From positions 1-32,244 of the forward strand of contig JALVAD010000186.1 of NCBI GenBank assembly GCA_027011385.1: DNA of 32,244 nucleotides, read 5' to 3'. The DNA is from Saprospiraceae bacterium. GTDB taxonomy: Bacteria; Bacteroidota; Bacteroidia; Chitinophagales; Saprospiraceae. The position numbers were made by a program, and so were the translations under genes. Shown in pieces: positions 1,750-21,500 of the stretch (position 1 is its first letter; each line of letters starts with the position of its first letter). The notes beneath the pieces were generated by a model that was not told the origin of the DNA, did not search any database, and was given only the letters and a program-made list of their open reading frames with translations.

Positions 1750-4362
1750 ATGAAAACACAAAAATTTACATTTACAGCTATTTTTATAGTTTTATTAATG
1801 ACTGCAACACAGTTTATAGTAGCCCAAAATGTGGGGATAGGTACCACAACACCAGATAACAGTGCAATGCTGGATGTAGTCTCTACATCCAAGGGTTTAC
1901 TAATACCCCGTATGACAGCAACAGAAAGAGGTAATATCATTAATCCTGCTTCCGGATTATTGGTTTATCAAACAGATGTACCTATAGGATTTTATTATTA
2001 TAATGGAACTACTTGGGCACATATTGGAGATGCATCTGCTACAGTTACAAAAATAAACGACTTAAGTGATGGGAAATCTGACACTAATGGCTCATCGGTA
2101 TTTCTGGGTATAGATGCAGGAAAAGTAGATGATGGTTCATCTAACCGAAATGTAGGAGTCGGTTTTGAATCACTCAAAGCAAACACATCAGGAGAACAGA
2201 ATATTGCCATAGGATATGAGGCACTTCTGAAAAATTTGACAGGTAAAAGAAATTCCGCTATTGGAGCATATTCTTTATTCTCAAATGAAAGTGGAAATTA
2301 TAATACTACTTTAGGAAATGGTGCCGGATATAATAATATATTAGGTAGTAGCAATGTCTTTCTTGGCTATAATGCCGGATATTATGAAACTGGAAGTGAT
2401 AAATTGTATATAGAAAATTCTCTTGGTGATGCTGATAATGCATTAATATATGGTGAATTTGATAATAATATACTAAGAACCAATGGTACATTTCAAATTG
2501 GTAATCCTATAAGTACAGGCTATTCATTTCCTACAGCAGATGGAACAGCAAACAAAGTGCTGAGAACAGATGGAAGTGGAGCTTTATCCTGGACTGATCA
2601 AAAAATAGATAATCTTATTGATGGGAAATCAGACACTAATGGCTCATCGGTATTTCTGGGTACAGATGCAGGAAAAGTAGATGATGGTTCGGCTAATGAA
2701 AATGTAGGAGTCGGCTTTGGAGCTTTAAGTGCTAATACAAATGGTAGCAGTAATACAGCAGTTGGGAACAGCTCTTTGCATTATAACATAGGAGGAAACT
2801 ATAATTCAGCATTTGGTAAAAAAGCATTGCACCATAACGAAACAGGGAGAGAAAATACAGCAATTGGTGATTATGCATTATTCACCAATGTTGCCGGAAC
2901 TAACAATACCGCACTTGGAAATGAAGCAGGGTATTCGTCTACCGGTAGCGGTAATGTGTTCCTAGGTAACCAAGCTGGCCATAGCGAAACAGCTAGCAAC
3001 AAATTGTATATTGATAATTCAGGAACAAGCTCTCCTCTTATCTACGGTGATTTTAGTAAAGATTCACTGGCTATAAATGGAAGTCTAAGCATTTCAGATG
3101 GAACAGAAGCATCTCTGAAATTACTTGAAACGAATGACTATGGATTTGAATTTAATTACAATGGAACCGAAGACAGACTAGAATTGTGGTCGCGAAAGTT
3201 TTCAGGAAATGAAGCTATTAGAACAACTTGGTTAAAAAATGGGAAGATAGGTATCGGGACTACTAATCCTTCTTCTGCACTCCATGTGTATAGTGCAAAC
3301 GATGCAGAACCTCTCGTTCATTTTGAATCTGTTGGAGATGTTTCCTTAAAAGTCAATGGACAAGGAGGCGAAAGCTATATCGAAGTGCAAAACGATGATA
3401 CCGGCACATCCGATTCTTGGAAAATGGGACTTAATGATGCCAATAGATTGGATATCCAATATGGGGCTGCCGGAAGTATGAATGGTGATACTCCGGGTAT
3501 CTCTATTCAGACAGATGGGAAAGTAGCGGTGGGACATAATAACCCTGATAATGCAGCTATACTTGACGTGAGTAGTACTACCAAGGGCTTTTTGCCACCG
3601 CGGATGACGACAGCACAAATGCTTGCAATACCTTCTCCACCTGCCGGCTTAATGGTTTATAACACTTCTATGAAAAACATTTTTTTTCATGATGGAAATA
3701 AATGGAAAAAAACATACAATGATGATGGCAAGTCTTGTGGAGATTTCACCTATGGTGGACAAACCTACCAAACAGTAATAATAGGTGCCCAATGCTGGAT
3801 GGCAGAAAATCTCAATATAGGGACAAGGATTGATGGTAATACAGAACAAACCAACAATTCTACCATCGAAAAATACTGCTATGACGATGATTTTAATAAT
3901 TGTTATGATTTTGGTGGCCTATACCAATGGGATGAGATGATGCAATATAGTACTTTAGAAGGAACTCAAGGTATCTGTCCTACCGGCTGGCACTTACCTA
4001 CTGATGATGAGTACAAAGCGCTGGAGAATTATCTTGGCATGTCGCAGTCACAAGCAAACAGTACTGGTTTTAGAGGTACAGATCAAGGCTGTCAACTTGC
4101 AGGTATTGTATATCTATGGACGGATGGAGCTCTTGACCAAAACGAAGCATTCGGAAGTAGTGGTTTTAAGGCTCTCCCTGGAGGTTTCCATTCTACGGAT
4201 GATACGTTCCAAAGTCTCTATGACCGCAATTACTTATGGTCTTCGAGTGAGTGGGGTTCTTCAGGTGCGTGGTATCGGTACTTGCACTACAATCAAAAAC
4301 AAGTCTCCCGAGACTATTGGGGTAAGGCTCACGGTTCTAGTGTCCGTTGTGTAAAGGATTGA
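1750..4362 (+). CDS. Secreted fibre-like protein with C-terminal FISUMP domain
   Basis: This is an 870-aa exported protein. Residues 1-25 are a signal peptide ending at VAQ before NVGIGTT. Residues 26-95 and about 600-660 carry two related modules with the phrase TKG(L/F)L(I/P)PRMT. Between them are many short repeats of the type NTAIGNxSL and FLGNxAG, as in YadA-like trimeric adhesin heads and tail fibres. The stretch from KIDNLIDGKSDTNGSSVFLG (about residue 289) repeats one near residue 104. Residues 665-870 form a Fib_succ_major (FISUMP) domain: CGDFTYGGQTYQTVIIG, then WMAENLN, TGWHLPTDDEYKALE and WSSSEWG, ending in SVRCVKD. There is no T9SS sorting domain. A trimeric or filamentous surface adhesin with a terminal binding module is the likely role, by inference. 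The last 35 residues resemble the variable region of diversity-generating retroelement targets (see findings). It lies 94 bp after the LytTR gene and may have its own promoter. Confidence 0.85.
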   Translation: MKTQKFTFTAIFIVLLMTATQFIVAQNVGIGTTTPDNSAMLDVVSTSKGLLIPRMTATERGNIINPASGLLVYQTDVPIGFYYYNGTTWAHIGDASATVTKINDLSDGKSDTNGSSVFLGIDAGKVDDGSSNRNVGVGFESLKANTSGEQNIAIGYEALLKNLTGKRNSAIGAYSLFSNESGNYNTTLGNGAGYNNILGSSNVFLGYNAGYYETGSDKLYIENSLGDADNALIYGEFDNNILRTNGTFQIGNPISTGYSFPTADGTANKVLRTDGSGALSWTDQKIDNLIDGKSDTNGSSVFLGTDAGKVDDGSANENVGVGFGALSANTNGSSNTAVGNSSLHYNIGGNYNSAFGKKALHHNETGRENTAIGDYALFTNVAGTNNTALGNEAGYSSTGSGNVFLGNQAGHSETASNKLYIDNSGTSSPLIYGDFSKDSLAINGSLSISDGTEASLKLLETNDYGFEFNYNGTEDRLELWSRKFSGNEAIRTTWLKNGKIGIGTTNPSSALHVYSANDAEPLVHFESVGDVSLKVNGQGGESYIEVQNDDTGTSDSWKMGLNDANRLDIQYGAAGSMNGDTPGISIQTDGKVAVGHNNPDNAAILDVSSTTKGFLPPRMTTAQMLAIPSPPAGLMVYNTSMKNIFFHDGNKWKKTYNDDGKSCGDFTYGGQTYQTVIIGAQCWMAENLNIGTRIDGNTEQTNNSTIEKYCYDDDFNNCYDFGGLYQWDEMMQYSTLEGTQGICPTGWHLPTDDEYKALENYLGMSQSQANSTGFRGTDQGCQLAGIVYLWTDGALDQNEAFGSSGFKALPGGFHSTDDTFQSLYDRNYLWSSSEWGSSGAWYRYLHYNQKQVSRDYWGKAHGSSVRCVKD

Positions 4363-4386: not shown

Positions 4387-4416
4387 CATCCGGCTGTCCT
4401 GCAAAGCAGCCGGATG
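4387..4416 (+). terminator. Strong hairpin after the FISUMP gene
   Basis: A perfect 10-bp inverted repeat, CATCCGGCTG and CAGCCGGATG with a 10-base loop, begins 24 bp after the stop codon. No immediate T run follows; the nearest T-rich stretch is about 30 bp on. It could be a terminator. A DNA cruciform next to a retroelement target region is an alternative reading, raised in the findings. Confidence 0.5.
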
Positions 4417-4769
4417 CACAGACTACGAAGCAGTCATAAAATACTATTTGATTTTATACTTATCTAAATTCTCAAATTATAATTATGAAAATAAAACAAT
4501 CTATCTGCTCAAAAAAATATTTTTTCATGAATTCAGGTTAATATTTTGTTGTTAATGTAGATTGCCGGGTGTTTAAGTATTCACTGGGTTTTTTGAAAAC
4601 AAATCTAAGACTCAGAGGCTCAATGAGATTCTGAAGCTGGTATTAAAAAGAGCTAGTTAAAAAAAACAGACACCAAACTTAAACCGGCTTCTCAAACTTC
4701 CTTCGTCAGCTTGCGAGTCCTATATTTCGCGATTGAAAGAGATTCTGAAGCTGGCTTGATTAAAAAATG
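4417..4769. repeat. Intergenic stretch with a 16-bp direct repeat
   Basis: No gene is visible here. GAGATTCTGAAGCTGG occurs at 4625-4640 and again at 4739-4754 in the same orientation, 114 bp apart. The second copy ends 15 bp from the 3' end of the transporter gene on the other strand. The gap separates two genes transcribed towards each other. Nothing else could be identified. Confidence 0.4.
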
Positions 4770-6817: not shown

Positions 6818-9800
6818 ATGACTTACCTAAGAGTAGCTTTTACTTTTATATTAGGATTTATATTTTCCATTATACTTTATTCTCAAGATGTAGAACTTTA
6901 TACCCAAGCAGATGTAGATGCTTTTGACCCAAATACAACGATGATAAGCGGCAACCTTACGATTGGTAATAAATATTATTATCTTGATCCCATTAACGAT
7001 TTATCAAATCTATCAAACCTCACTTCTATTAGTGGATATTTAGATATAAGTGGTAATAATGTCTTAACAAATATTGATGGACTAAGTAAAATTACTACCA
7101 TTGGTAAAGATTTAAATATTCGAAGTAATAAAGTATTAACAAATATTGATGGGTTAAGTAAGATTACTTCCGTTAGTGGAGTTTTGCATATTATTGACAA
7201 TAATAAACTAACAAATATTGATGGGTTAAGTAAGATTACTTCCGTTAGTGGATTATTTATTAATTTTAATGATGCATTAACAAATGTTCATGGGCTAAAT
7301 AATATCACTTCCATTGGTAAAGACTTATTTATTAGTGGCAATGCTGCGTTAACAAATGTTCATGGGCTTAGTAAGCTCTCTTCTATTGGTAAAGATTTAG
7401 ATATTAGCTGGAACAGTGTATTAACAAATATTGATGGGCTAAGTAAGATTACTTCCATTGGTAGAGATTTAGAAATCGATAAGAACAATGCATTAACAAA
7501 TATTGATGGATTAAGTAATATCACTTCTATTGGGGGGAATTTAAACATTTCTAACAATGATGCATTAACAAATATTGATGGACTTAGTAAGCTCACTTTC
7601 ATTGGTAGATCTTTACATATTATTGGTAATAATGTATTAACAAATATTAATGGACTAAGTAAGCTCACTTCCAATATTGGGTATTTAGGTATTAAAGACA
7701 ATGCTGTCTTAACAAATATTGATGGACTTAGTAAGCTCACTCTCATTGGTAACGTTTTGAATGTTTCTAGAAATAATAAACTAACAAACCTTAATGGGTT
7801 AATTAATATCACTTCTATTGGGGGAGATTTAAACATTTCTAGCAATGATGCATTAACAAATATTGATGGACTTAGTAAACTCACTTCTATTGAGGGGGAT
7901 TTACGTATTAGTGATAATGATGCATTAACAAATATTGATGGGCTAAGTAAGATAACTTCTACTAGTGGATATTTGAATATTTATTACAATGTTGCATTGA
8001 CAAATATTGATGGACTAAACAAACTCACTTCAATTGGGGGAGATTTACGTATTATTGGTAATAATGTATTAACAAATCTTGATGGGCTAAATAAAATTAC
8101 TTCTATTAGTGGACATTTGTATATTTATGATAATAATAAGCTGACAAATCTTGATGGACTAAGTAAGCTCTCTTCTATTGGGAGAGCTTTACATATTATT
8201 GGTAATAGTGTATTAACAAATATTGATGGGCTAAATAATATAACTTCCATTAGGGAAAATTTGGTTGTTTTGAAAAATATTGCATTAACAAATATTGATG
8301 GGGTAGGTAAGCTCACTTCCATTAGTGGAGATTTAGAAATTATTAATAATAATGTATTAACAAATCTTAATGGGCTAAACAAACTCACTTCCATTGGGGG
8401 AGATTTACGTATTGGTGGTAATAATGTATTAACAAATCTTGATGGGCTAAGCAAGCTAACTTCTATTGGTAGGGGTTTGTATATTTATCGCAATAATATG
8501 CTAACAAATCTTGATGGGCTAAGTAAGATTACTTCTATTGATGGGTATTTGAGTATCTATGGCAATGATGCATTGACAAATATTGATGGGCTAAACAAAC
8601 TCACTTCCATTGGGAGAGATTTAGCAATTATTGGTAATAATGTATTAACAAATCTTGATGGGCTAAGTAAAATTACTTCTATTGGTGGGTATTTAAATAT
8701 TCACTCCAATAATACACTAGCAGATTGCTGCGGTATTCAAGGAATCTTATCCACACTTAGTGCAATTGGAGAGCAAATTTACATTTATGATAATCCGTCA
8801 GAATGTAGTAGTAAGGATAAAATATTGGAATCAACATGTGAAATAAATACTAATATTCTTACCTTTCCCTCATGCATTGATGCCGAAAATGGCTCTTTAC
8901 AGATTACTGTCAATCGGTATGACACAATTCCCTTTTATTACAAATGGGAAAGGATAGAAGATAGTGCTATGGGTAGTGGAAGTAGTTTAGATAATATTTT
9001 TATTGTAGAAAATCTAAAAGGTGGAACTTATAATGTCACGGTTACCACACCTGCACCTGATACCGTTATAAAAACAGGGATTGTTTTAAATCAAATACTT
9101 GGCTCGGTATTTGAGATTATTGAAATTACTACAACTAATAGCTCCAATGGATATAATAATGGAAGTATTACGATAAAAACCGCAGGTGGAACACCACCAT
9201 ACACTTATGACTGGTCAGGAGTATCATCGGGAAGCCAAAACGGGATTGCTGATAATGGTTATACTATTAATAGCCTGGCACAAGGGGAGTATTCTATAAC
9301 GGTATCCGATAATGTGGTAAACCAACAAAGTGTTACAGTATCACTTCTTGACGAGACGGTCCCTGTATTTCCCTGTACAGAACCACTTGACATAGTTATA
9401 CTCAACGATGTTTCAGGTTCGGTAGATGCAATTGAATACAGAGAGTCCAAACAATTTTTTGTCGATTTTCTTAATGCCGCAAATATAGGCACAAATACTG
9501 ATGAGAGTAGGGCAGCTATTATTGAATGGTCTGATGGTGGCTCTCAGAAAATTCAAATTCCCATTACCGGAGATATAGCCATTTTGCAGGATTACATCTC
9601 TTATACCAGAGCATTTGATGGAAACACATCACCACATCAGGCAATGAGTTTTGGTAAAGATTATCTCGATAGTGTTGGACGTGCGGATGTTGAAAAAGTA
9701 ATTATTCTTTCTACTGATGGTGAAAGTAACCAGGTATCTCCATCTCTGATAGCATTGGCTGATAAATTCAAAGCTGCCGGATATCATATTGTCACCATAG

Positions 9801-12800
9801 CTTTTGATAATGCATTTACTAATACTGAGACAAAAGATATATTAACCAAAGTTGCTTCTAACTCTCATTTGGCTCCGGGTGCACCTGCTTATTCACTTCT
9901 TGACAAAGATTTGGCAGATAAAATAGTCAATCTCTATCTTTGCCCTATAGACCCGGGCAGTACTGCTAAAGCCTACTTTAATAGAGATGGAGCAATTGAC
10001 ATTCTCGATATTGTACCTATTGGCAATTGTCCGTATCCAGATGGTGTAGAGATAAGCTTTACCATTGAAGCTTTAAGAGAACTCTCTTTTCCTGCCGGCA
10101 CTCCGGTCACGTTTTATTTCAATAATCCTGAACTTTTTGGAGCTACTCCCATTTCAACCTGGATAATGCCCTGTGCTTTGACAGCAGGAGAAATTGATAC
10201 TTTTACTGTAATACTACCAGTTAATACAGCCGGAAATATCTTTGCCGTTCTCAATGATGATGGCAGCCAATCTCCTCCCATACAGTTTCCTGTCACCGGT
10301 ATTGAAGAACTTGCATATTCCAACAATATAGACAATCAGAGCATTTGTCTTGATGATATAGCGACTCTTCAGGCATTGAAATATACCACAACTCCCAAAC
10401 CTATCTGCGATACACTTGTGATATACACTATAAATGTATGCAATATCAGTGAAGTCGATGCTTTTGGTGTGAAAGTTAAGGATATTCCCCCCGATGATTT
10501 TGTTTTAGTTGGTACTATCTTCAATGACAATGGATGTGCTACCGATAATGGCGGGGTTTATGATATACCTGCCGGATGTTGTATATCTCTTACACTTACT
10601 TATGGCGTGGCTAATGCTGCCAATGGTTACTACGGAAATCAGGGAGTACATCTTGATGGACCTTCGGGGCAAGATTATATAGATTTTGATGGTAGCACTA
10701 CTACTTCCGAAGATGTAATTATTGACGGTACATTGGATTGTCCTTCGACGAATATTGAATTCACAAAAGAAGTAAATATCTATCAATCTTGTGATGATGC
10801 CTTTGTGGTTTATAAGTTTTCTATTAAAAATGAAATGAATATTCCTTTACAAGGACTTGTTTTTACGGATATATTATCCGATCCTTGTGTCTGGGCTTTT
10901 GAACCTTATCTGCTGGAGGGGTTAAGCATTGGTAATAGGGATATTGACGGCAATACGGCTAGCTTTGTTATTGATGAGATTCTCCCTGATACTACTGCAA
11001 CATTTTATTTGGATGCAGCTTTGAATTCTTGGGAAATGAGCGGAATTTTATCTAATACCGCCACTCTTGAAAATGTTCCTGATCCTGATAATGGTGGATA
11101 TAGAACCCTAACTTCCAATACAGTTTCCACAGATATCACAACTACTCCTACAATTATTTTACCGGATACGATATTCGCACATCAGGGGGATGAAATAGAT
11201 TTGGGAATCAACTCTACTGATTCGATTAGTTGGACAACATCTGGAGATGGTATTTTTACTGACAGCAGCAGCAATAAAACGAAATATATTCCAGGAGTTC
11301 AAGATTCACTTGACCAACAAGTGTATTTGTTCGTCTCCATAAAATCTGACTGTGGGGAAACAGGAAAAAATATTGTAATAATTTTTGAGCAATGTAGCTT
11401 GTCATTTACTTCGTTTAATATTGGAGATTGCAATGACAATGGCACTCCCTCCGATAATACCGATGATACTTATGAAGTGACTTTTAATATTTTCGCCTTA
11501 AATCCAGGTTCAAGTAACACTCTTAATGTAAAAGACAGCACCAAGACTTATGGACAGTTCAGCTACATTAGCCAAGGAAAGATAACGCTTCCTGCTGATG
11601 GATTGGATTATAATTTGGTGTTTGAGGATAGTGAAGTACCGGGTTGTACAATTCAAAAAACGGTAAGCCAACAAAGTTGCTCAGATAAACATTCAAATTA
11701 TTTTATGTCCACTTCCGGTTCTGATACAAATGATGGTACTAGCGAAGTCAATGCTTGGGCAACATTTGAGCATTCATATACTATAATGAAAGGAGGAGAT
11801 ACTCTTACGATTTTAGATGGCACATATTTCCAAGAGCTATACCCACCTGTTAAGTTATCAGGTAGCGAACATTCTTATACTATGTATAGAGCAAAGAATC
11901 CCGGAAAGGTTATTCTAGCACCTACCTCTATTGGCGATGATGAGATGGAAGGAGTGATTTATGTTTTTTCTAATATCTCGAGGGGCATAACATCCTACAT
12001 TCATTTTGATGGATTATTTGCAAAAGGTGTTGGGGAACATTCTGCAATCAGTATTGCGAGTATGGATTTTGCAACTGAGGAACAGATGACTCATCATATC
12101 ACATTAACAAGATGTGGCGCAATGGGCTCTGCTCTTGGGACAAATACAGATGCCTTTGATATTGGGTCTGTCAGAGATATATTGGTTGAAGATTGTTTTG
12201 CTTTTGGCTTCGGTCGTAAAGCAATGCAGCTTTATGGAGCTAAAAGGATTACAGTTAGAAGAATGATTGTCAGATACGATTGGTGGCAAGGACATAAATA
12301 TAAACCGAGTGATCCTAGAGTAAATCTCTCCGCATACAATACAATTGGGGCTACACTAGAAAATATCATAGCAATGGACGCAGGTCCTCATCCTGCTTCT
12401 ACTTCTCCGGACAGAGCAGGATTAGTGGCTAGTGGCAATCAGGGTGGAGGTACAGCGATTGATGGTAGCCGGGATGTGAATTATCTGGGCTGTATTGTTT
12501 TTAATAATAATGAATTTGCAAAAGGGCTAAATGCTGTTGAAGTAAATGGAGGAACAGGTTCTCCTGTCAAAAATTTATTATTTAAAGATATCGTAATTTA
12601 TGGCGCTGATGCAGGGTTCAATATCCACGATAATGTCGATAGTATCCGTTTAGAAAACATCACTTCAACTCATAATACACATATTGGAATCAGAGTAAAT
12701 CCATATCCCTCTTATACTATCTCAAACGTAAAAATTGATAAGGTGGTTTCAACAGACAATAAGTATGATGGCATATATTGGAATGAAGATATGACTCACG

Positions 12801-13432
12801 TTGAACTAAGTAATTCTACATCTGTAAGAAATGGTGAAGGAGATGATATCGAAAGCCAGTACGAACCTGAAATCAAATACTTACCTATCAATAAACCTGT
12901 AATGGGATTTGAAAGGGGAGGAATTGTCAGAAATAAATATATCGACGGAGTTTTGACGGAAGAGTCCCTATGGCCTTGGCCTTATGAAAAAGTCATTAAG
13001 GGATTTATGTGTAAAGAGGAATACTTGCAAGAAATTGCAGACAGTATCAATCTGTATGAAGGCACTAATATTGATTATGTCCCCGGATTATGCAAAACCG
13101 ACAGCTCTATTACCGGATATATTTGGTCTTATTTAGGAAATCCTTGTCCTGATACTATATGCGACAATTCAGTCAATACCGGAGATATTTTCTCGAAGAG
13201 CCAAACCAATATTGAAATCTATCCCAATCCTGCTCATAATCTAATATATATTAAAGCCAAACTTCCCTTAGACACAAATCATTATAATATTTATGATATT
13301 TGCGGTAAAAAGCTTAAATTTGGGACTATTATCGCCGGTAAGATAGATATTTCAGATTTTAGCCAAGGGGTATACTTTGTCAGAATCCAAAATAACCAAA
13401 AATTCTTACTTGGGAAATTTATTGTATTATAA
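6818..13432 (+). CDS. Giant LRR/SprB/VWA surface protein, paralogue 1, type A T9SS sorting domain
   Basis: 2204 aa. Residues 1-22 are a signal peptide (cleavage near YSQ). Residues 84-634 are exactly 23 leucine-rich-like units of 24 residues (one of 23), consensus TNIDGLSKLTSIGGDLxIxxNNAL, after one degenerate capping unit. A Cys-containing cap (DCCGIQ, CSS) follows. Then come two SprB-like modules (about 675-850) and a VWA domain (855-1043) with an intact MIDAS: D864xS866xS868, T937 and D967. Further on are Ig-like and DUF11-like modules (1060-1525) and one 99-residue Asp-rich four-Cys repeat (1526-1624). Unlike its two paralogues it then has a right-handed beta-helix (about 1627-2045) and a type A sorting domain (about 2130-2204, IYPNPAHN and GVYFVRI). 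It should be exported by T9SS and act as an adhesin or ligand-binding surface protein; the ligand is unknown. The next paralogue starts 35 bp downstream with no promoter between them. Confidence 0.88.
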   Translation: MTYLRVAFTFILGFIFSIILYSQDVELYTQADVDAFDPNTTMISGNLTIGNKYYYLDPINDLSNLSNLTSISGYLDISGNNVLTNIDGLSKITTIGKDLNIRSNKVLTNIDGLSKITSVSGVLHIIDNNKLTNIDGLSKITSVSGLFINFNDALTNVHGLNNITSIGKDLFISGNAALTNVHGLSKLSSIGKDLDISWNSVLTNIDGLSKITSIGRDLEIDKNNALTNIDGLSNITSIGGNLNISNNDALTNIDGLSKLTFIGRSLHIIGNNVLTNINGLSKLTSNIGYLGIKDNAVLTNIDGLSKLTLIGNVLNVSRNNKLTNLNGLINITSIGGDLNISSNDALTNIDGLSKLTSIEGDLRISDNDALTNIDGLSKITSTSGYLNIYYNVALTNIDGLNKLTSIGGDLRIIGNNVLTNLDGLNKITSISGHLYIYDNNKLTNLDGLSKLSSIGRALHIIGNSVLTNIDGLNNITSIRENLVVLKNIALTNIDGVGKLTSISGDLEIINNNVLTNLNGLNKLTSIGGDLRIGGNNVLTNLDGLSKLTSIGRGLYIYRNNMLTNLDGLSKITSIDGYLSIYGNDALTNIDGLNKLTSIGRDLAIIGNNVLTNLDGLSKITSIGGYLNIHSNNTLADCCGIQGILSTLSAIGEQIYIYDNPSECSSKDKILESTCEINTNILTFPSCIDAENGSLQITVNRYDTIPFYYKWERIEDSAMGSGSSLDNIFIVENLKGGTYNVTVTTPAPDTVIKTGIVLNQILGSVFEIIEITTTNSSNGYNNGSITIKTAGGTPPYTYDWSGVSSGSQNGIADNGYTINSLAQGEYSITVSDNVVNQQSVTVSLLDETVPVFPCTEPLDIVILNDVSGSVDAIEYRESKQFFVDFLNAANIGTNTDESRAAIIEWSDGGSQKIQIPITGDIAILQDYISYTRAFDGNTSPHQAMSFGKDYLDSVGRADVEKVIILSTDGESNQVSPSLIALADKFKAAGYHIVTIAFDNAFTNTETKDILTKVASNSHLAPGAPAYSLLDKDLADKIVNLYLCPIDPGSTAKAYFNRDGAIDILDIVPIGNCPYPDGVEISFTIEALRELSFPAGTPVTFYFNNPELFGATPISTWIMPCALTAGEIDTFTVILPVNTAGNIFAVLNDDGSQSPPIQFPVTGIEELAYSNNIDNQSICLDDIATLQALKYTTTPKPICDTLVIYTINVCNISEVDAFGVKVKDIPPDDFVLVGTIFNDNGCATDNGGVYDIPAGCCISLTLTYGVANAANGYYGNQGVHLDGPSGQDYIDFDGSTTTSEDVIIDGTLDCPSTNIEFTKEVNIYQSCDDAFVVYKFSIKNEMNIPLQGLVFTDILSDPCVWAFEPYLLEGLSIGNRDIDGNTASFVIDEILPDTTATFYLDAALNSWEMSGILSNTATLENVPDPDNGGYRTLTSNTVSTDITTTPTIILPDTIFAHQGDEIDLGINSTDSISWTTSGDGIFTDSSSNKTKYIPGVQDSLDQQVYLFVSIKSDCGETGKNIVIIFEQCSLSFTSFNIGDCNDNGTPSDNTDDTYEVTFNIFALNPGSSNTLNVKDSTKTYGQFSYISQGKITLPADGLDYNLVFEDSEVPGCTIQKTVSQQSCSDKHSNYFMSTSGSDTNDGTSEVNAWATFEHSYTIMKGGDTLTILDGTYFQELYPPVKLSGSEHSYTMYRAKNPGKVILAPTSIGDDEMEGVIYVFSNISRGITSYIHFDGLFAKGVGEHSAISIASMDFATEEQMTHHITLTRCGAMGSALGTNTDAFDIGSVRDILVEDCFAFGFGRKAMQLYGAKRITVRRMIVRYDWWQGHKYKPSDPRVNLSAYNTIGATLENIIAMDAGPHPASTSPDRAGLVASGNQGGGTAIDGSRDVNYLGCIVFNNNEFAKGLNAVEVNGGTGSPVKNLLFKDIVIYGADAGFNIHDNVDSIRLENITSTHNTHIGIRVNPYPSYTISNVKIDKVVSTDNKYDGIYWNEDMTHVELSNSTSVRNGEGDDIESQYEPEIKYLPINKPVMGFERGGIVRNKYIDGVLTEESLWPWPYEKVIKGFMCKEEYLQEIADSINLYEGTNIDYVPGLCKTDSSITGYIWSYLGNPCPDTICDNSVNTGDIFSKSQTNIEIYPNPAHNLIYIKAKLPLDTNHYNIYDICGKKLKFGTIIAGKIDISDFSQGVYFVRIQNNQKFLLGKFIVL
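7067..8719 (+). repeat. 72-bp coding tandem repeat, 23 units
   Basis: This segment encodes 551 residues, which is 23 units of 24 with one unit short by one residue (unit 3, 7211-7279). Each unit begins with the codons for TN(I/L)(D/N)GL. Units are similar at DNA level: units 2 and 3 share their first 41 bases exactly. Such arrays gain and lose whole units in frame by recombination or slippage. Confidence 0.85.
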
Positions 13433-13467
13433 AATTAGGCTTTTGCATCTTTGAAAATATCAATATT

Positions 13468-16400
13468 ATGACTTACCTAAGAATAGCATTTACCCTTATA
13501 TTAGGATTTGCCCTTTCCACTATACTTTATTCTCAAGATGTAACGCTCAGAACCCAAGCAAATGTAGATGCTTTTGACCCCAACACAACTACGATAAGCG
13601 GTAATCTTACTATTGGTGAAATTAATAGCTCTGATCCTATTACCGATTTGTCAAATCTATCAAACCTCACCTCTGTTGGTGGAGATTTAAAAATCTATTA
13701 CAATTATAAACTAACAAATCTTGATGGGCTAAGCAAGCTCACTTCTATTGGTGAGAATTTAAATATTAGTTACAGTAATGTATTAACAAATCTTGATGGG
13801 CTAAGCAAGCTCACTTCTATTGGTGAGAATTTAGATATTAATTACAATAATGCATTAACAAATATTGATGGGCTAAACAAGCTCACTTCTATTACTGGAG
13901 AGTTAAAAATCATTAGTAATAATGTCTTAACAAATCTTAATGGTCTAAGTAATATTACTTCCGTTGATGGGAATTTCGATATAGTTAGTAATGATGTATT
14001 AACAGATCTTGATGGACTAAGCAATATCACTTCCGTTGGTGGATATTTAGATATTAGAGTTAATATTGTATTAACAAATATTAATGGACTTAGTAATCTC
14101 ACTTCCGTTAGTGGATTGAGTATTTCCAGCAATGATGCATTAACAAATCTTGATGGGCTAAATAATATCATTTCCATTGATGAGTATTTAAATATTAGTA
14201 ATAATAATGTATTAACAAATATTGATGGACTTAGTAATCTCACTTCCGTTAGTGGATTGAGTATTTCCAGCAATGATGCATTAACAAATCTTGATGGGCT
14301 AAGTAAGATTACTTCCATTAGTGGAGGATTGAGTATTTCCAGCAATAATGCCTTAATAAATCTTGATGGGCTAAGTAATCTCACTTCTATTGGAGTACAT
14401 TTAACGATTATGGAGAATAAAGTCTTAACAAATATTGATGGTCTAAGTAAGCTCACTTCCATTGGGGAAAATTTGTATATTTCTAGCAATAATACACTAA
14501 CAAATCTTGATGGGCTAAGTAAGATATCTTCCATCAATGGGGATTTAAGTGTTTATGGCAATAATAAACTAACAAATCTTGATGGGCTAAATAAGATCTC
14601 TTCCATTGGTGGGTATTTACTTATTTGGAACAATTATGATTTAATAAATATTGAAGGACTTAGTAATCTTACTTCTATTGGTGAGTATTTACTTATTGAA
14701 GGAAATGATGTGTTAACAAATCTTGAAGGACTAAGTAATCTCACTTTTATTGGTGGGAATTTAGATATTAGAATCAATCATGCACTAACAGATTGCTGTG
14801 GTATTCAAGAAATATTATCTACACCCGGAGCAATTGGAGGGCAAATCAACGTTTATAATAATCCTTCAGAATGTAGTAGTAAGGAAGAAATATTGGAATC
14901 TTGTTTCAATATTACTATTTTGGTTTTTCCTCCTTGTCTAGATGCCGACAATGGCTCTTTACAGATTACAGTCAATGGATATGATACAATTCCTTTTTAT
15001 TACAAGTGGGAAAGGATAGAAGATAGTGCTATGGGTAGTGGAAGTAGTTTTGATAATATTTTTAATATAGAAAATCTAAAAAGCGGAACTTATAATGTCA
15101 CAGTTACCACGACCGCACTCGATACTATTATAAAAACCGGAATTGTTTTAAATCAAATATCTGGCTCTCTATTTGAGATTATTGAAATCACAACCACTAA
15201 TAGCTCCAATGGGTATAATAACGGAAGCATTACAGTAAAAATAGCGGGTGGTATACCACCTTATACTTATGATTGGTCAGGAATATCTACAGGAAGCCAA
15301 AGCGGAATTACTGGTGATAATTATACTATTATCAACCTACCACAAGGGGAGTATTCTATAACAGTATCTGATGATGTATGGAATCAACAAATTGTAGAGG
15401 TATCACTTCTAGATGAGACAGTCCCTGTGTTTCCTTGTACAGAACCACTTGACATAGTCATTCTCAACGATGTTTCTAGTTCTGTAGATGCAACTGAATA
15501 CAGAGAGTCTAAACAATTTTTTGTCAATTTTCTTAATGCAGCAAATATCGGTACAAATGCTAATGATAGCAGAGCCGCTATTGTTGAATGGTCTGATGGT
15601 GGCTCTCAGAAAATTCAAATACCTATTACAGGAGATATTGCTACTTTACAGGATTACATCTCTTATACCAGAGTATTTGATGGTGGTACATCACCACATC
15701 AGGCATTGAGTTTTGGTAAAGATTATCTTGACAGTTTTGGACGTGCAGATGTAGAGAAAGTAATAATTCTTTCTACTGATGGTAGACGTAACCAGATATC
15801 TTCATCTTTGATAGCATTGGCGGACAAATTAAAAGCTGCCGGCTATCATATTATCACAATAGCTTTTGATAATGCATTTGCAAATAGTGAGACAAGAGAT
15901 TTATTAACCAAAGTTGCTTCCAACCCTCAATTGGCTCCTGGTGCCCCCGCATATTCACTTCTTGACGAAGATTTAGCAGATAGAATTGTCAAAATCTATC
16001 TTTGTCCGATTGACCCGGGAAGTACTTCTACAGCATACTTCAATAGAGATGGAGCAATAGACATCCTCGATATTATGCCTTTTGGAAATTGTCCGAATCC
16101 CTATGGTGTAGAGATAAGTTTTACCATTGAGGCCTTAAGAGAATTGTCTCTTCCTGCCGGAACTCCTATCACTTTTTATTTCAATAATCCTGAACTTTTT
16201 GGAGCTACTCCCATTTCAACTTGGAGAATGCCATGTGCTTTGGCAGCAGGAGAAATTGATACTTTTTCGGTAATATTACCCGTTAATACCGCCGGAAATA
16301 TCTTTGCAGTTCTCAATGATGATGAAAGCCAATCTCCACCTATACTGTTTCCCCTCACCAATATTGAAGAACTTGCATATTCCAATAATATAGACAATCA

Positions 16401-18048
16401 AAGTATTTGTCTTGATGATAAAGCAACTCTACAGGCTTTGAAATATACTACAACTCCCAAACCTATCTGCGATACACTTGTGATATACACTATAAGTATA
16501 TGCAATATCAGTGAAGTAGATGCTTTTGGTGTGGTAGTTGAGGATATTCCTCCTGATGATTTTGTTTTAGTGGGCACTATCTTCAATGACAATGGATGTG
16601 CTACCGATAATGGCGGCATGGTTTATGATATTCCTACCGGATGTTGTATTTCTCTTACACTTACATATGACGCTGCTAATGCTATCAATGGTTATTACGG
16701 AAATCAGGGAGTAGATATTGACGGATCTTCAGGGCAAGATTATATAGATTTTGATGGTAGTACGACTACTTCCGAAGATGTGATTATTGACGGCACATTG
16801 GATTGCCCTTCGACGAATATTGAGTTCACAAAAGAAGTAAATATCTATCAATCTTGCGATGACGCCTTTGTTGTTTATAAGTTTTCTATTAAAAATGAAA
16901 TGAATATTCCTCTACAAGGGCTTGTTTTTACGGATATTTTACCCGATCCTTGTGTCTGGGCTTTTGAACCATATCTACTGGAAGGTTTAAGCGTTGGCAA
17001 TAGGAATATTGATGGCAATATGGCAAGCTTTGTCATTGATGAGGTTCTACCTGATACTACTGCAATATTTTATTTGGATGCAGCTTTGAGCTCTTGGGAT
17101 ATAAGTGGAATTTTATCAAACACCGCCGCTCTAGAAAATGTTCCTAATCCTGATAATGGTGGGTATAGAACCCTAACTTCCAATACAGTTTCCACAGATA
17201 TCACAGCTACTCCTTCAATCATTATACCGGATACGATATTTGCACATCTTGGGGATGAAATAGATTTGGAAATCAATTCTACAGATTCGATTAGTTGGAC
17301 AACATCAGGAGATGGTATTTTTTCCAACAGCAGCAGCAGTAAAACGAAATATATTCTCGGAGCTCAAGATTCGATTGATCACCAAGTGTATTTGTTCATC
17401 TCTATAAAATCTGACTGTGGGGAAACAGGAAAAAACATTGTAATTATTTTTGAGCAATGCCGTTTATCCATTACATCGGTAAATATTGGTGATTGCGATA
17501 ATAAAGATACTCCCTTGGAAAATACAGATGATACTTATGATGTTACTTTCAATATCTCAGCTATAAATCAGGATACCAATGTTACTTATACGGTAAAAGA
17601 CAGCACTAAGAGTTATGGTCAATTCAGCTACAATAGCGAAGGAAAGATAACGCTTCCAGCTGATGGATTGGATTATACGTTGGTGTTTGAGGACAGCGAA
17701 ATATCAGGTTGTACAATTCAAAAAGTGGTAAGCCAAAAAAGTTGTTCGGATAGTAATATAAAAAAACTGCTAATCGATATTCCAAATATTTTTACACCGG
17801 ATGACGATGGATACAATGACAAATGGTACGTGAAAATATCAGACCAAAGATTAAAAATACTCTCTTGCAAAATCTTTGATAGATGGGGTGAATTGGTTTA
17901 TTTTTCTGAAAATGATAATCATTTTTATTGGGATGGCCGGTTCAAAAATCGTAAAGCTATGCAAGGTGTGTATGTTTATGTTATTGAATATGCTATTGAT
18001 AATGGGAAAACGGTAACTGTAGCAGGAGATTTGACATTGATAAGATAG
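13468..18048 (+). CDS. Giant LRR/SprB/VWA surface protein, paralogue 2, type B sorting domain
   Basis: 1526 aa, with the same module order as its upstream neighbour but shorter. It has a signal peptide (1-22), 15 solenoid units at residues 83-440 (units 6 and 8 are 23-mers), a DCCGIQ cap and SprB-like modules. The VWA domain has MIDAS D668-V-S-S-S, T741 and D771. DUF11-like modules and one 99-residue repeat (1331-1428) follow. The C-terminus (about 1436-1526) is a gliding-motility-type (type B) sorting domain: IPNIFTPDDDGYNDKWYV, FDRWGELVY, WDGRFKNRKAMQGVYVY. Export by T9SS is expected, with an outcome different from type A proteins. The 35-bp gap to paralogue 1 holds the shared leader (TTAGGCTTTTGCATCTTTGA) but lacks the TAACTTTG box, so it is probably cotranscribed with paralogue 1. 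The conserved modules are close to the other two paralogues, pointing to duplication and perhaps gene conversion. Confidence 0.88.
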   Translation: MTYLRIAFTLILGFALSTILYSQDVTLRTQANVDAFDPNTTTISGNLTIGEINSSDPITDLSNLSNLTSVGGDLKIYYNYKLTNLDGLSKLTSIGENLNISYSNVLTNLDGLSKLTSIGENLDINYNNALTNIDGLNKLTSITGELKIISNNVLTNLNGLSNITSVDGNFDIVSNDVLTDLDGLSNITSVGGYLDIRVNIVLTNINGLSNLTSVSGLSISSNDALTNLDGLNNIISIDEYLNISNNNVLTNIDGLSNLTSVSGLSISSNDALTNLDGLSKITSISGGLSISSNNALINLDGLSNLTSIGVHLTIMENKVLTNIDGLSKLTSIGENLYISSNNTLTNLDGLSKISSINGDLSVYGNNKLTNLDGLNKISSIGGYLLIWNNYDLINIEGLSNLTSIGEYLLIEGNDVLTNLEGLSNLTFIGGNLDIRINHALTDCCGIQEILSTPGAIGGQINVYNNPSECSSKEEILESCFNITILVFPPCLDADNGSLQITVNGYDTIPFYYKWERIEDSAMGSGSSFDNIFNIENLKSGTYNVTVTTTALDTIIKTGIVLNQISGSLFEIIEITTTNSSNGYNNGSITVKIAGGIPPYTYDWSGISTGSQSGITGDNYTIINLPQGEYSITVSDDVWNQQIVEVSLLDETVPVFPCTEPLDIVILNDVSSSVDATEYRESKQFFVNFLNAANIGTNANDSRAAIVEWSDGGSQKIQIPITGDIATLQDYISYTRVFDGGTSPHQALSFGKDYLDSFGRADVEKVIILSTDGRRNQISSSLIALADKLKAAGYHIITIAFDNAFANSETRDLLTKVASNPQLAPGAPAYSLLDEDLADRIVKIYLCPIDPGSTSTAYFNRDGAIDILDIMPFGNCPNPYGVEISFTIEALRELSLPAGTPITFYFNNPELFGATPISTWRMPCALAAGEIDTFSVILPVNTAGNIFAVLNDDESQSPPILFPLTNIEELAYSNNIDNQSICLDDKATLQALKYTTTPKPICDTLVIYTISICNISEVDAFGVVVEDIPPDDFVLVGTIFNDNGCATDNGGMVYDIPTGCCISLTLTYDAANAINGYYGNQGVDIDGSSGQDYIDFDGSTTTSEDVIIDGTLDCPSTNIEFTKEVNIYQSCDDAFVVYKFSIKNEMNIPLQGLVFTDILPDPCVWAFEPYLLEGLSVGNRNIDGNMASFVIDEVLPDTTAIFYLDAALSSWDISGILSNTAALENVPNPDNGGYRTLTSNTVSTDITATPSIIIPDTIFAHLGDEIDLEINSTDSISWTTSGDGIFSNSSSSKTKYILGAQDSIDHQVYLFISIKSDCGETGKNIVIIFEQCRLSITSVNIGDCDNKDTPLENTDDTYDVTFNISAINQDTNVTYTVKDSTKSYGQFSYNSEGKITLPADGLDYTLVFEDSEISGCTIQKVVSQKSCSDSNIKKLLIDIPNIFTPDDDGYNDKWYVKISDQRLKILSCKIFDRWGELVYFSENDNHFYWDGRFKNRKAMQGVYVYVIEYAIDNGKTVTVAGDLTLIR
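13714..14787 (+). repeat. 72-bp coding tandem repeat, 15 units
   Basis: This segment encodes 358 residues: 13 units of 24 and two of 23. Units 6 (14074-14142) and 8 (14215-14283) are both 69 bp and differ at a single base, a sign of recent duplication or conversion within the array. Confidence 0.85.
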
Positions 18049-18059
18049 TGATATAATGA

Positions 18060-18433
18060 GGTGTATTTCATTTTTTCGCGTTTTGCAATACTGCCCTCTA
18101 ACTCCCTGTTTCTTCGCAGACTTCGAAACCGGGAAAACCGCACCCCGCATTTCCCTCCGCAATTCCCTTGATAAGCGAGTGTCTCTGACCTCGCTTCTTG
18201 CAAAATGCACTACTCCTGTGCTGATGCACAGGTTCTTTCACTATCAAGTGAGATCTACTCACTTGATTTTTGATAAAATCAAAACCATTCAATCATCCCC
18301 CTATCATTGTTCGTAACAAAGTGAAGAAAAATTATAAGGGGGAGAGCAGGGCATTTGCGGGATGGTAGAGGGGGCGGTTGTGCCAATAAACAGTAGTGTC
18401 AATCTGTAATGAAAAAAAAAAATGAGATGCACC
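18060..18433 (+). repeat. Intergenic inverted-end element, copy 2
   Basis: Longest copy, about 374 bp. The left end is GGTGTATTTCATTTTTTCGC (18060-18079); the right end (18411-18433) ends AAATGAGATGCACC. The centre has the CCCCCT/AGGGGG hairpin at 18297-18342 followed by GCGGGATGGTAGAGGGGGCGG. The left half (TTTTGCAATACTGCCCTC, then CTTCGAAACCGGGAAAACCGC) is shared with copy 3. It contains additional small hairpins. It begins 11 bp after the stop codon of paralogue 2 and ends 38 bp before the next -7 box. Confidence 0.7.
18215..18267 (+). terminator. Two hairpins, second followed by T run
   Basis: CCTGTGC and GCACAGG form a 7-bp stem with a 4-base loop (18215-18232). ATCAAGTGAG and CTCACTTGAT then form a perfect 10-bp stem with a 5-base loop (18243-18267), followed directly by five Ts when the stem's last T is counted. 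This lies inside intergenic element copy 2, about 165-220 bp after the stop of paralogue 2, and could end its transcript. The second stem is only 40 percent GC, so the call is tentative. Confidence 0.4.
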
Positions 18434-18449
18434 TTAATGATGGAATAAA

Positions 18450-18500
18450 TATATTTCTTTATATTTTTTTGTAACTTTGATTCATTATTAGGCTTTTGCA
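18450..18500 (+). promoter_or_regulatory. Promoter cassette, copy 2 (paralogue 3)
   Basis: ATATATTTCTTTATA, then seven Ts, then TAACTTTG at 18472-18479 (full -7 match) and TTCATTATTAGGCTTTTGC. It is nearly identical to the cassette at 6724-6780. The start codon is about 60 bp further on. Confidence 0.6.
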
Positions 18501-18538
18501 TCTTTGAAATTATTGAAATTAACGAAAATATCAATATT

Positions 18539-21500
18539 ATGACTTACCTAAAAATAGCTTTTACCTTTATATTAGGATTTGCCCTTTCCTCTCTGCTTTA
18601 CTCACAAGATGTAAAGCTTTATACCCAAGCAGATGTAGATGCCTTTGACCCCAATACAACGATGATAAGCGGTAATCTAGAGATTGGTAGTACTTATGGC
18701 AATGATCCCATCACAGATTTATCAAATCTATCAAACCTAACTTCCATTGGTGGATATTTAAAAATCTATAACAATGATGCATTAACAAATCTCGATGGGT
18801 TAAGTAAACTCACATCTATTGGGGGTTTTTTAATTATTACAACCAATGATACTTTAACCGATATTAATGGGCTAAATAAGCTCTCTTCCATTGGTGGAGA
18901 TTTGATTATTTCCAACAATTCTAAACTATCAAATATTGATGGGCTAAATAATCTAATTTCCATTGGTGGAGATTTGATTATTTACAACAATTCTAAACTA
19001 TCAAATATTGATGGGCTAAATAAGCTCACTTCCATTGGTGGAGGTTTGATTATTTATTACAATGATGCATTAACAAATATTGATGGGCTAAATAATCTAA
19101 TTTCTATTGGGGGAAAATTATATATTAGAAACAATGATGCTTTAACAAATATTGATGGATTAGGTAAAATTACTTCAGTAAGTGAAAATTTGACCATTAT
19201 TAACAATAAAAAACTAACAAATATTGATGGGCTAAATAAACTCACTTCCATTAATGGATATTTAAGAATTTCTGGAAATGATATATTATCAAATTTTGAT
19301 GGTTTAAGTAGTCTTAATACTATTGATAAATATTTAAAAATTGTTAACAATAAAAAACTAACAGATTGCTGTGGTATTCAAGAAATCTTATCTACACCCG
19401 GAGCAATTGGAGGGCAAATTATAATTTATAATAATCCGTCAGAATGTAGTAGTAAAGAAGAAGTATTGGAATCATCATGTGGAATAAAGATTAATATTCT
19501 CACTTTTCCTCCTTGTATTGATGCCGATAACGGCTCTTTACAAATTACTGTAAAGAGATATGATACAATTCCTTTTTATTACAAATGGGAACGGATAGAA
19601 GATAGTGCTATGGGTAGTGGAAGTAGTTTTGATAATATTTTTAATATAGAAAATCTAAAAGGAGGAACTTATAATATCACTGTTACCACGAACGCACCTG
19701 ATACTATTATAAATACAGGAATTGTTTTAAATCAAATATCCGGCTCTGTATTTGAGATTATTGAAATCACTACTACTAATAGCTCCAATGGATATAACAA
19801 TGGTAGCATTACTGTAAAAACAGCAGGTGGTATATCGCCATATACTTATGATTGGTCAGGAATATCCACAGGAAGCTATATAGGAATTACTGATGATAAT
19901 TATACCATTGATAACCTTACACAAGGTGAGTATTCTATAACAGTATCCGATGATGCCGGGAATCAACAAAGTATCGCAGTATCACTTCTAGATGAGACAA
20001 TCCCTACATTTCCCTGTACAGAACCAATTGATATAATTATACTCAACGATGTTTCTGGATCAGTAAACGCAACTGAATATAAAGAGTCTAAACAATTTTT
20101 TGTTGATTTTCTTAATGCAGTAAATATAGGCACAAACGCTGATGATAGCAGGGCAGCTATTGTTGAATGGTCTTCTTATAGCCCTCCGAAAATTCAAATT
20201 CCTATTACCGGAGATATTGCGACTTTACAGGATTACATCTCTTACAATAGAGTATTTTATGGAGGTACATCTCCACATCTGGCAATGAGTTTTGGTAAAA
20301 AATATCTTGACAGTGTTGGACGCGTAGATGTAGAAAAGGTAATTATTCTTTCTACTGATGGAAGTTATGGTCAGGTATCTCCATCATTGATAGCATTGGC
20401 TGACAAATTCAAAGCTGCCGGATATCATATTGTCACCATAGCTTTTGATAATGCATTTGCTTATAGTAGTACAAGAGATATATTAACCGAAGTTGCTTCT
20501 ATCCCTCAGTTAGCTCCGGGTGCTCCTGCATATTCACTTCTAGATGGAGATTTAGCAAATAAAATAGTCAATCTCTATCTTTGTCCGATAGACCCCGGAA
20601 GTACTGCTACAGCGTATTTCAATAGAGACGGGTCAATTGACATTCTTGATATTGTACCTATTGGCAATTGTCCGTATCCCGATGGTGTAGAGATAAATTT
20701 TACAATTGAGGCTTTAAGAGAACTGTCTCTTCCTGCCGGTACTCCTGTTACGTTTTATTTCAATAACCCTGAACTTTTCGGAACTACTCCCATTTTAACC
20801 TGGATAATGCCCTGCGCTTTGGCAGCAGGAGAAATTGATACTTTTTCTGTAATATTACCTGTTAATACCCCCGGAAACATCTTTGCTGTTCTCAATGATG
20901 ATGGCAGCCAATCTCCTCCTATACAGTTTCCTATCACCAATATTGAAGAACTTGCATATTCCAATAATATAGACAATCAGAGCATTTGTCTTGATGATAG
21001 AGCTACTTTACAGGCATTGAAATATACTACAACTCCCAAACCTATCTGCGATACACTTGTGATATACACTATAAACGTATGCAATATCAGTGAAGTAGAT
21101 GCTTTTGGTGTCGTAGTTGAGGATATTCCTCCCGATGATTTTGTTTTGGTGGGCACTGTCTTCAATGACAATGGATGTGCTACCGATAATGGCGGGGTTT
21201 ATGATATTCCTGCCGGATGTTGTATTTCTCTTACACTTACTTATGATGCTGCGAATGCTGCCAATGGTTACTACGGAAATCAGGGAGTAAATATCGATGG
21301 ACCATCAGGGCAAGATTATATAGATTTTGATGGTAGCACTACTACTGCTGAAGATGTGATTATTGACGATACATTGGATTGTCCTTCGACAAATATTGAA
21401 TTCACAAAGGAAGTAAATATCTACCAATCTTGCGACGATGCCTTTGTGGTTTATAAGTTTTCTATTAAAAATGAAATGAATATTCCTCTACAAGGGCTTG

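Follow-up and report, generated by a model that had tools for sequence, protein, structure and literature searches.

A FISUMP protein of a Saprospiraceae bacterium whose C-terminus is laid out like the variable region of a diversity-generating retroelement

Proteins with a Fib_succ_major/DUF1566 domain are among the variable proteins of diversity-generating retroelements (DGRs) in the human microbiome (PMC4159848), and a DGR variable protein with the same domain is encoded by the Bacuni phages of Bacteroides uniformis (PMC8143477). In these systems, the domain is C-terminal, the variable codons are the last ones at the 3' end, and a reverse transcriptase (RT) and a template repeat (TR) are present. 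Sequences downstream of the variable region (VR) also matter. Homing in BPP-1 depends on a GC-rich hairpin that follows the VR, and comparable structures 4-34 bp past the VR are frequent among phage DGRs (PMC3240598). In addition, variable proteins encoded away from the DGR locus have been documented in cyanobacteria (PMC7517822).

The window analysed here, a stretch of 32,244 nucleotides that forms contig C186 of a draft genome (4.47 Mb, 655 contigs, 93% complete), encodes a FISUMP protein that shares with the Fib_succ_major/DUF1566 targets both the C-terminal domain and the position of the variable codons; unlike those systems, it has neither an RT nor a TR in its assembly. It resembles the cyanobacterial remote proteins in carrying a C-terminal variable domain away from a DGR locus, but those have a TR of more than 50% identity in the same genome, whereas none was found for the window. 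An earlier note on this DNA had named FISUMP-like ends as known carriers of DGR variable regions; the Fib_succ_major targets reported previously (PMC4159848, PMC8143477) bear this out, as do three relatives of the window (loci L045, L068 and L079) that are themselves targets. The features of the gene are as follows:

1750-4362, + strand: open reading frame of an 870-amino-acid FISUMP protein (profile matches; N-terminal features read from the sequence)
3775-4359, + strand: FISUMP/Fib_succ_major domain, residues 676-869 (PF09603, TIGR02145, AlphaFold)
4168-4359, + strand: equivalent of the L045 VR (column entropies; alignment to the L045 TR)
4333-4359, + strand: conserved 3' end, GGTTCTAGTGTCCGTTGTGTAAAGGAT (sequence comparison)

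The 870-amino-acid protein, a candidate DGR variable protein or a former one, begins with a signal-peptide-like N-terminus (MKTQKFTFTAIFIVLLMTATQFIVAQN), continues with a repetitive middle part and ends in the FISUMP domain. Both PF09603 (E 4e-38, 132 bits) and TIGR02145 (E 1.9e-34, 119.9 bits) match the domain above their curated cut-offs of 33.9 and 41.65, respectively. Its AlphaFold model is confident (mean pLDDT 94.9); the top Foldseek matches to this model are lectin-like, yet have E values of at least 0.09, and a sequence search of solved structures gave no match. The domain may bind variable ligands. The nearest homologue is 63-64% identical. Directly upstream, at 1194-1655, a small stand-alone LytTR DNA-binding protein is encoded, which is a possible regulator. 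The window also carries, at 6818-23515, three tandem paralogous genes for giant secreted proteins with receptor-L/LRR-like repeats, VWA and SprB repeats; their type IX secretion C-termini are of two kinds, Por_Secre_tail in the first protein and CHU_C in the second.

Throughout 4168-4359, hypervariable codons are interspersed with fixed scaffold codons, and their density is highest at 4252-4332. The earlier note numbered the residues and read the codons of 4231-4362 correctly, and the alternation of fixed and varied positions that it described is real. In approx. 150 related domains, W841, R843, L845, V852, R854 and G862 are conserved and R866 and C867 are invariant, while most of the varied positions rank with the domain's most variable columns (entropy 3.2-3.9 bits); S863, which had been counted among the varied residues, is no more than moderately variable. 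The final segment, GGTTCTAGTGTCCGTTGTGTAAAGGAT, is unchanged in the FISUMP of congener G002 (63% identical). It occupies the place of the homing-initiation (IMH) end of a DGR and might have the same functional role.

The earlier proposal that this C-terminus looks like a DGR target is supported in part, by the nearest relative of the window, L045, which belongs to an uncultured Saprospirales MAG (contig CAJXUU010000199.1) and whose FISUMP domain is 62% identical to that of the window. L045 is a DGR target: over the aligned coding part, its TR (7668-7868) mismatches its own VR at 21 of 50 adenines and at 1 of 139 other bases (p 3e-13), and it is accompanied by a bAvd gene (PF22296, E 2.4e-13) and by an RT (7938-9121) with the DGR motif LPIGNLTSQ, split over three frames. 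The RT is frame-broken although TR and VR look clean, which points to a sequencing error or a recently broken enzyme. The two loci share the same layout, a homologous hairpin after the stop codon and the same tree clade. They differ in what follows the gene, namely TR, bAvd and the frame-broken RT in L045 and a gene for an MFS transporter on the opposite strand in the window. When the VR is left out of the tree, a 13-row clade (SH-aLRT 98) contains the window, and within it the window and L045 belong to one 9-row group (89); L045 is the row nearest to the window by path, and the inner forks of the 9-row group are poorly resolved. Viral contig L125 was set aside, as it shares no more than the initial 86-92 residues of the domain and stops at that point.

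Moreover, the AAY codons of related TRs coincide with window positions 842, 844, 846, 849, 853, 855, 857 and 861. Both this coincidence, with template codons on exactly the varied columns, and the status of L045 as a bona fide target argue against the view that the protein is an ordinary FISUMP surface receptor that a DGR never rewrote. According to that view, which is possible but rather doubtful, the ligand-binding face evolves fast under ordinary selection, just a part of the family has been recruited by DGRs, and the hairpin serves as an element of the 3'-UTR or as something like a terminator. It is favoured by the scan of related genome-contig loci, in which a TR lies within reach in only four: L045, L068 and L079 (both labelled Moranbacteria) and L081 (Bacteroidales). 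It also gains from ortholog pairs such as L027/L032 and L070/L072, whose variable residues are almost unchanged. Two non-target FISUMPs from the same MAG as L045 (L048 and L050) show the same alternation and do not fit the L045 TR.

Templates rich in AAC and AAT give rise to NNY codons. The codon test used eight columns that are AAC or AAT in several proven templates. The proven DGR targets L045, L068, L079 and L081 have NNY at 8/8 of these columns; the window has it at 6/8, below the family mean of 0.81, and its CAA (849) and TGG (857) are underivable from AAY. Thus, the argument of the earlier note that the varied codons descend from AAY is weaker than claimed, and an excess of NNY codons was rejected as proof of a DGR. 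Sparing of the third base was likewise absent from the family: among approx. 10,600 pairs of relatives, the third base is altered in 0.67 of changed codons at variable columns and in 0.70 of those elsewhere. Since these values are alike, DGRs are not rewriting the family at large, and the alternating layout is not by itself diagnostic; the likeness of the values counts in favour of the never-rewritten receptor. Between the window and any relative, no A-restricted or third-base-sparing pattern was seen.

Further evidence lies beyond the stop codon, in a structure that the earlier note did not mention:

4387-4416, no strand assigned: hairpin with 10-bp arms, CATCCGGCTG/CAGCCGGATG, around TCCTGCAAAG (covariation, genome scans, folding)
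4601-4722, no strand assigned: non-coding stretch of 122 nt, 88% identical to the sequence right 3' of the FISUMP of congener G002 (L016 2085-2206)

The hairpin starts 24 nt past the stop codon and folds as single-stranded DNA with a z of -3.3. Homologous hairpins lie 3' of the FISUMP genes of C249 (same genome as the window), G001, G134, L052 and the DGR-coupled L045 and L109; such a hairpin is missing after the FISUMP of G002 (L016) and absent 3' of the L045 TR. In the alignment of seven FISUMP genes including the window, 87.9% of cells pair and 15 cells carry double changes (0 of 500 shuffles; 2-3 in slid controls). When seven genomes were scanned with a pattern of the 17-base core, one mismatch being allowed, it matched at four FISUMP sites only. 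Similarly, a covariance model run on 299 genomes gave four strong matches, all four directly after FISUMP genes; the weaker matches comprise two after FISUMPs in G057, which do not look like terminators, and others, mostly terminator-like, after unrelated genes. None of 61 other long open reading frames of the same genomes ends in an inverted repeat of at least 9 bp.

It is proposed that 4387-4416 is a DGR target-site hairpin that would serve retrohoming, by analogy with the BPP-1 mtd site, where a GC-rich stem also follows the 3' end of the VR closely (PMC3240598). The spacing of 24 nt compares with 4-34 bp there. The loops differ, GRNA in BPP-1 mtd as against a YGNA consensus in the relatives of the window. 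In the hairpins of the window and C249, the inner pairs are lost (the window loop measures 10 nt), which makes their fitness as DGR targets uncertain. Because FISUMPs in G001 and G057, both without a DGR RT, are likewise followed by the hairpin, it may have another role, a point in favour of a receptor that was never rewritten; its occurrence in genera without DGR RTs could reflect repeated loss or a DGR-independent role. The core looks like the stems of ordinary terminators in these genomes. A plain terminator was nevertheless rejected, given that the hairpin of the window lacks a T-run and that L045, L052, G001 and G134 have, further downstream, a separate hairpin that does carry one. This, together with the presence of the hairpin at the DGR-coupled L045 and L109, again speaks against the never-rewritten receptor.

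The earlier note had correctly observed that the window holds no RT or template repeat, and it had taken a search of the full genome as the way to check its proposal. The absence extends to the whole assembly: neither component was found in the 93%-complete draft. In particular, RVT_1 gave no match in this genome even at E <= 10, and an alignment of DGR RTs gave none at E <= 1, while the positive control, the enzyme of G134, was found at 5e-173. The genome has no bAvd either, PF22296 being absent from G000-G003; bAvd/Avd genes are common in DGRs and not universal. When 4190-4362 was compared with the own genome by BLAST, only the region itself and the FISUMP paralogue C249 rose above noise and no template appeared, and the L045 TR matched only C249. 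An A-tolerant template pattern found the region itself only. This pattern, with three mismatches allowed, reached 12 nt beyond the coding end, so the weight is carried by the BLAST searches. No DGR RT was detected in four congeners (92-96% complete). The only RT among these four, that of G004, adjoins genes read as CRISPR-type, is missed by the DGR-RT alignment and is not DGR-type; outside the congeners, the motifs of the RTs in G057 and G160 assign them to other types. With the machinery absent from the own genome and the DGR RT absent from four congeners, DGR ancestry rests on the relatives, and the lack of machinery in five congeneric genomes also fits a receptor that was never rewritten.

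Ongoing adenine-directed diversification is not supported: TR, RT and bAvd are absent from the 93%-complete genome, the codons fit an AAY template less well than the family average, and no relative shows an A-restricted pattern with the window. A DGR located outside this draft could still rewrite the region in trans, and the draft does consist of 655 contigs at 93% completeness. Moreover, the target hairpin is intact, and remote targets have a precedent in cyanobacteria (PMC7517822). Such a live remote target is, however, improbable: RT, bAvd and TR would all have to lie in the missing 7%, and five genomes, the four congeners at 92-96% completeness among them, lack the enzyme. In addition, two of the eight template-type codons cannot be derived from AAY. 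The window and C249, two hairpin-bearing FISUMPs of one genome, differ by many silent and non-A-type changes and thus share no template. Of the two terms "remote" and "orphan" used in the earlier note, orphan is the likelier.

Targets that lie apart from their template do occur among the relatives. L109, the second FISUMP of the L045 MAG, lies on another contig and bears the hairpin. Its 3' half differs from the L045 TR mostly at adenines (overall mismatches at 28 of 54 adenines and 22 of 147 other bases), and L109 is a trans target of that TR, which lends the live remote reading some support from within the clade. The same reading draws on L047 (6001-6576) and L052 (2303-2878), from different MAGs, whose VRs differ by approx. 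11 residue changes at AAY-type codons with almost none at the third base, whereas the domain outside the VR has 51 third-base changes in 148 codons. The two genes stand apart on the tree built without the VR, and the 6 kb around L047 yielded neither a template nor an RT. They look like remote or orphan DGR targets, or like the product of VR cassette exchange. Among other FISUMP pairs, tandem and inter-genome, L103_274, L103_574 and L078_255 (loci L103 and L078) show first- and second-base changes at variable columns with few at the third base; no template was found in the fetched loci of L103 and L078.

A decayed element is found in the window's own family. G160:C94 (L199 1-1400) carries a FISUMP, a bAvd with a stop and a TR cut off at the 3' end, and the G160 genome lacks a DGR RT; this decayed FISUMP-target DGR demonstrates that DGR loss does happen. 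G134:C84 (L163 943-6493) holds a DGR that targets a CHAT/STAND-like protein with an FGE-sulfatase C-terminus. This DGR was considered as a rewriter of FISUMPs and discarded, as its template fits the FGE-sulfatase protein and does not match the hairpin-bearing FISUMP of G134.

Taken together, the region behaves, or in the past behaved, as a DGR variable region does, and it does not pass as a complete DGR in this genome. With moderate confidence, it is regarded as an orphaned, probably frozen DGR-type variable protein. Ancestors of the secreted FISUMP protein would have been diversified by a DGR at their C-terminal ligand-binding end, ancestral rewriting that we infer from the relatives. The anatomy of the target appears to have been kept, with exposed variable codons between scaffold codons, a conserved 3' end and a putative recognition hairpin after the stop codon, while the retroelement (TR, bAvd and RT) was apparently lost in the lineage of the window. 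The present residues would then be the frozen product of a DGR, subject now to the drift of any ordinary gene, and a compatible DGR entering the cell could rewrite the region again.

A more far-reaching idea, which is speculative and unlikely to hold, is that hairpin-bearing FISUMP genes persist as dormant acceptor sites after their own retroelement has gone, a pool open to renewed rewriting by DGRs that come in later or work in trans. If so, such rewriting would have left its traces in the VRs of L047 and L052, which have near-identical silent bases in genes that stand apart on the VR-less tree. Orphaned or remote targets are overlooked because searches for DGR targets begin at the reverse transcriptase. 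A target-side signature, consisting of the domain and a covarying hairpin just after the stop codon, would find such targets without an RT and would make the persistence of frozen variable proteins after retroelement loss testable.
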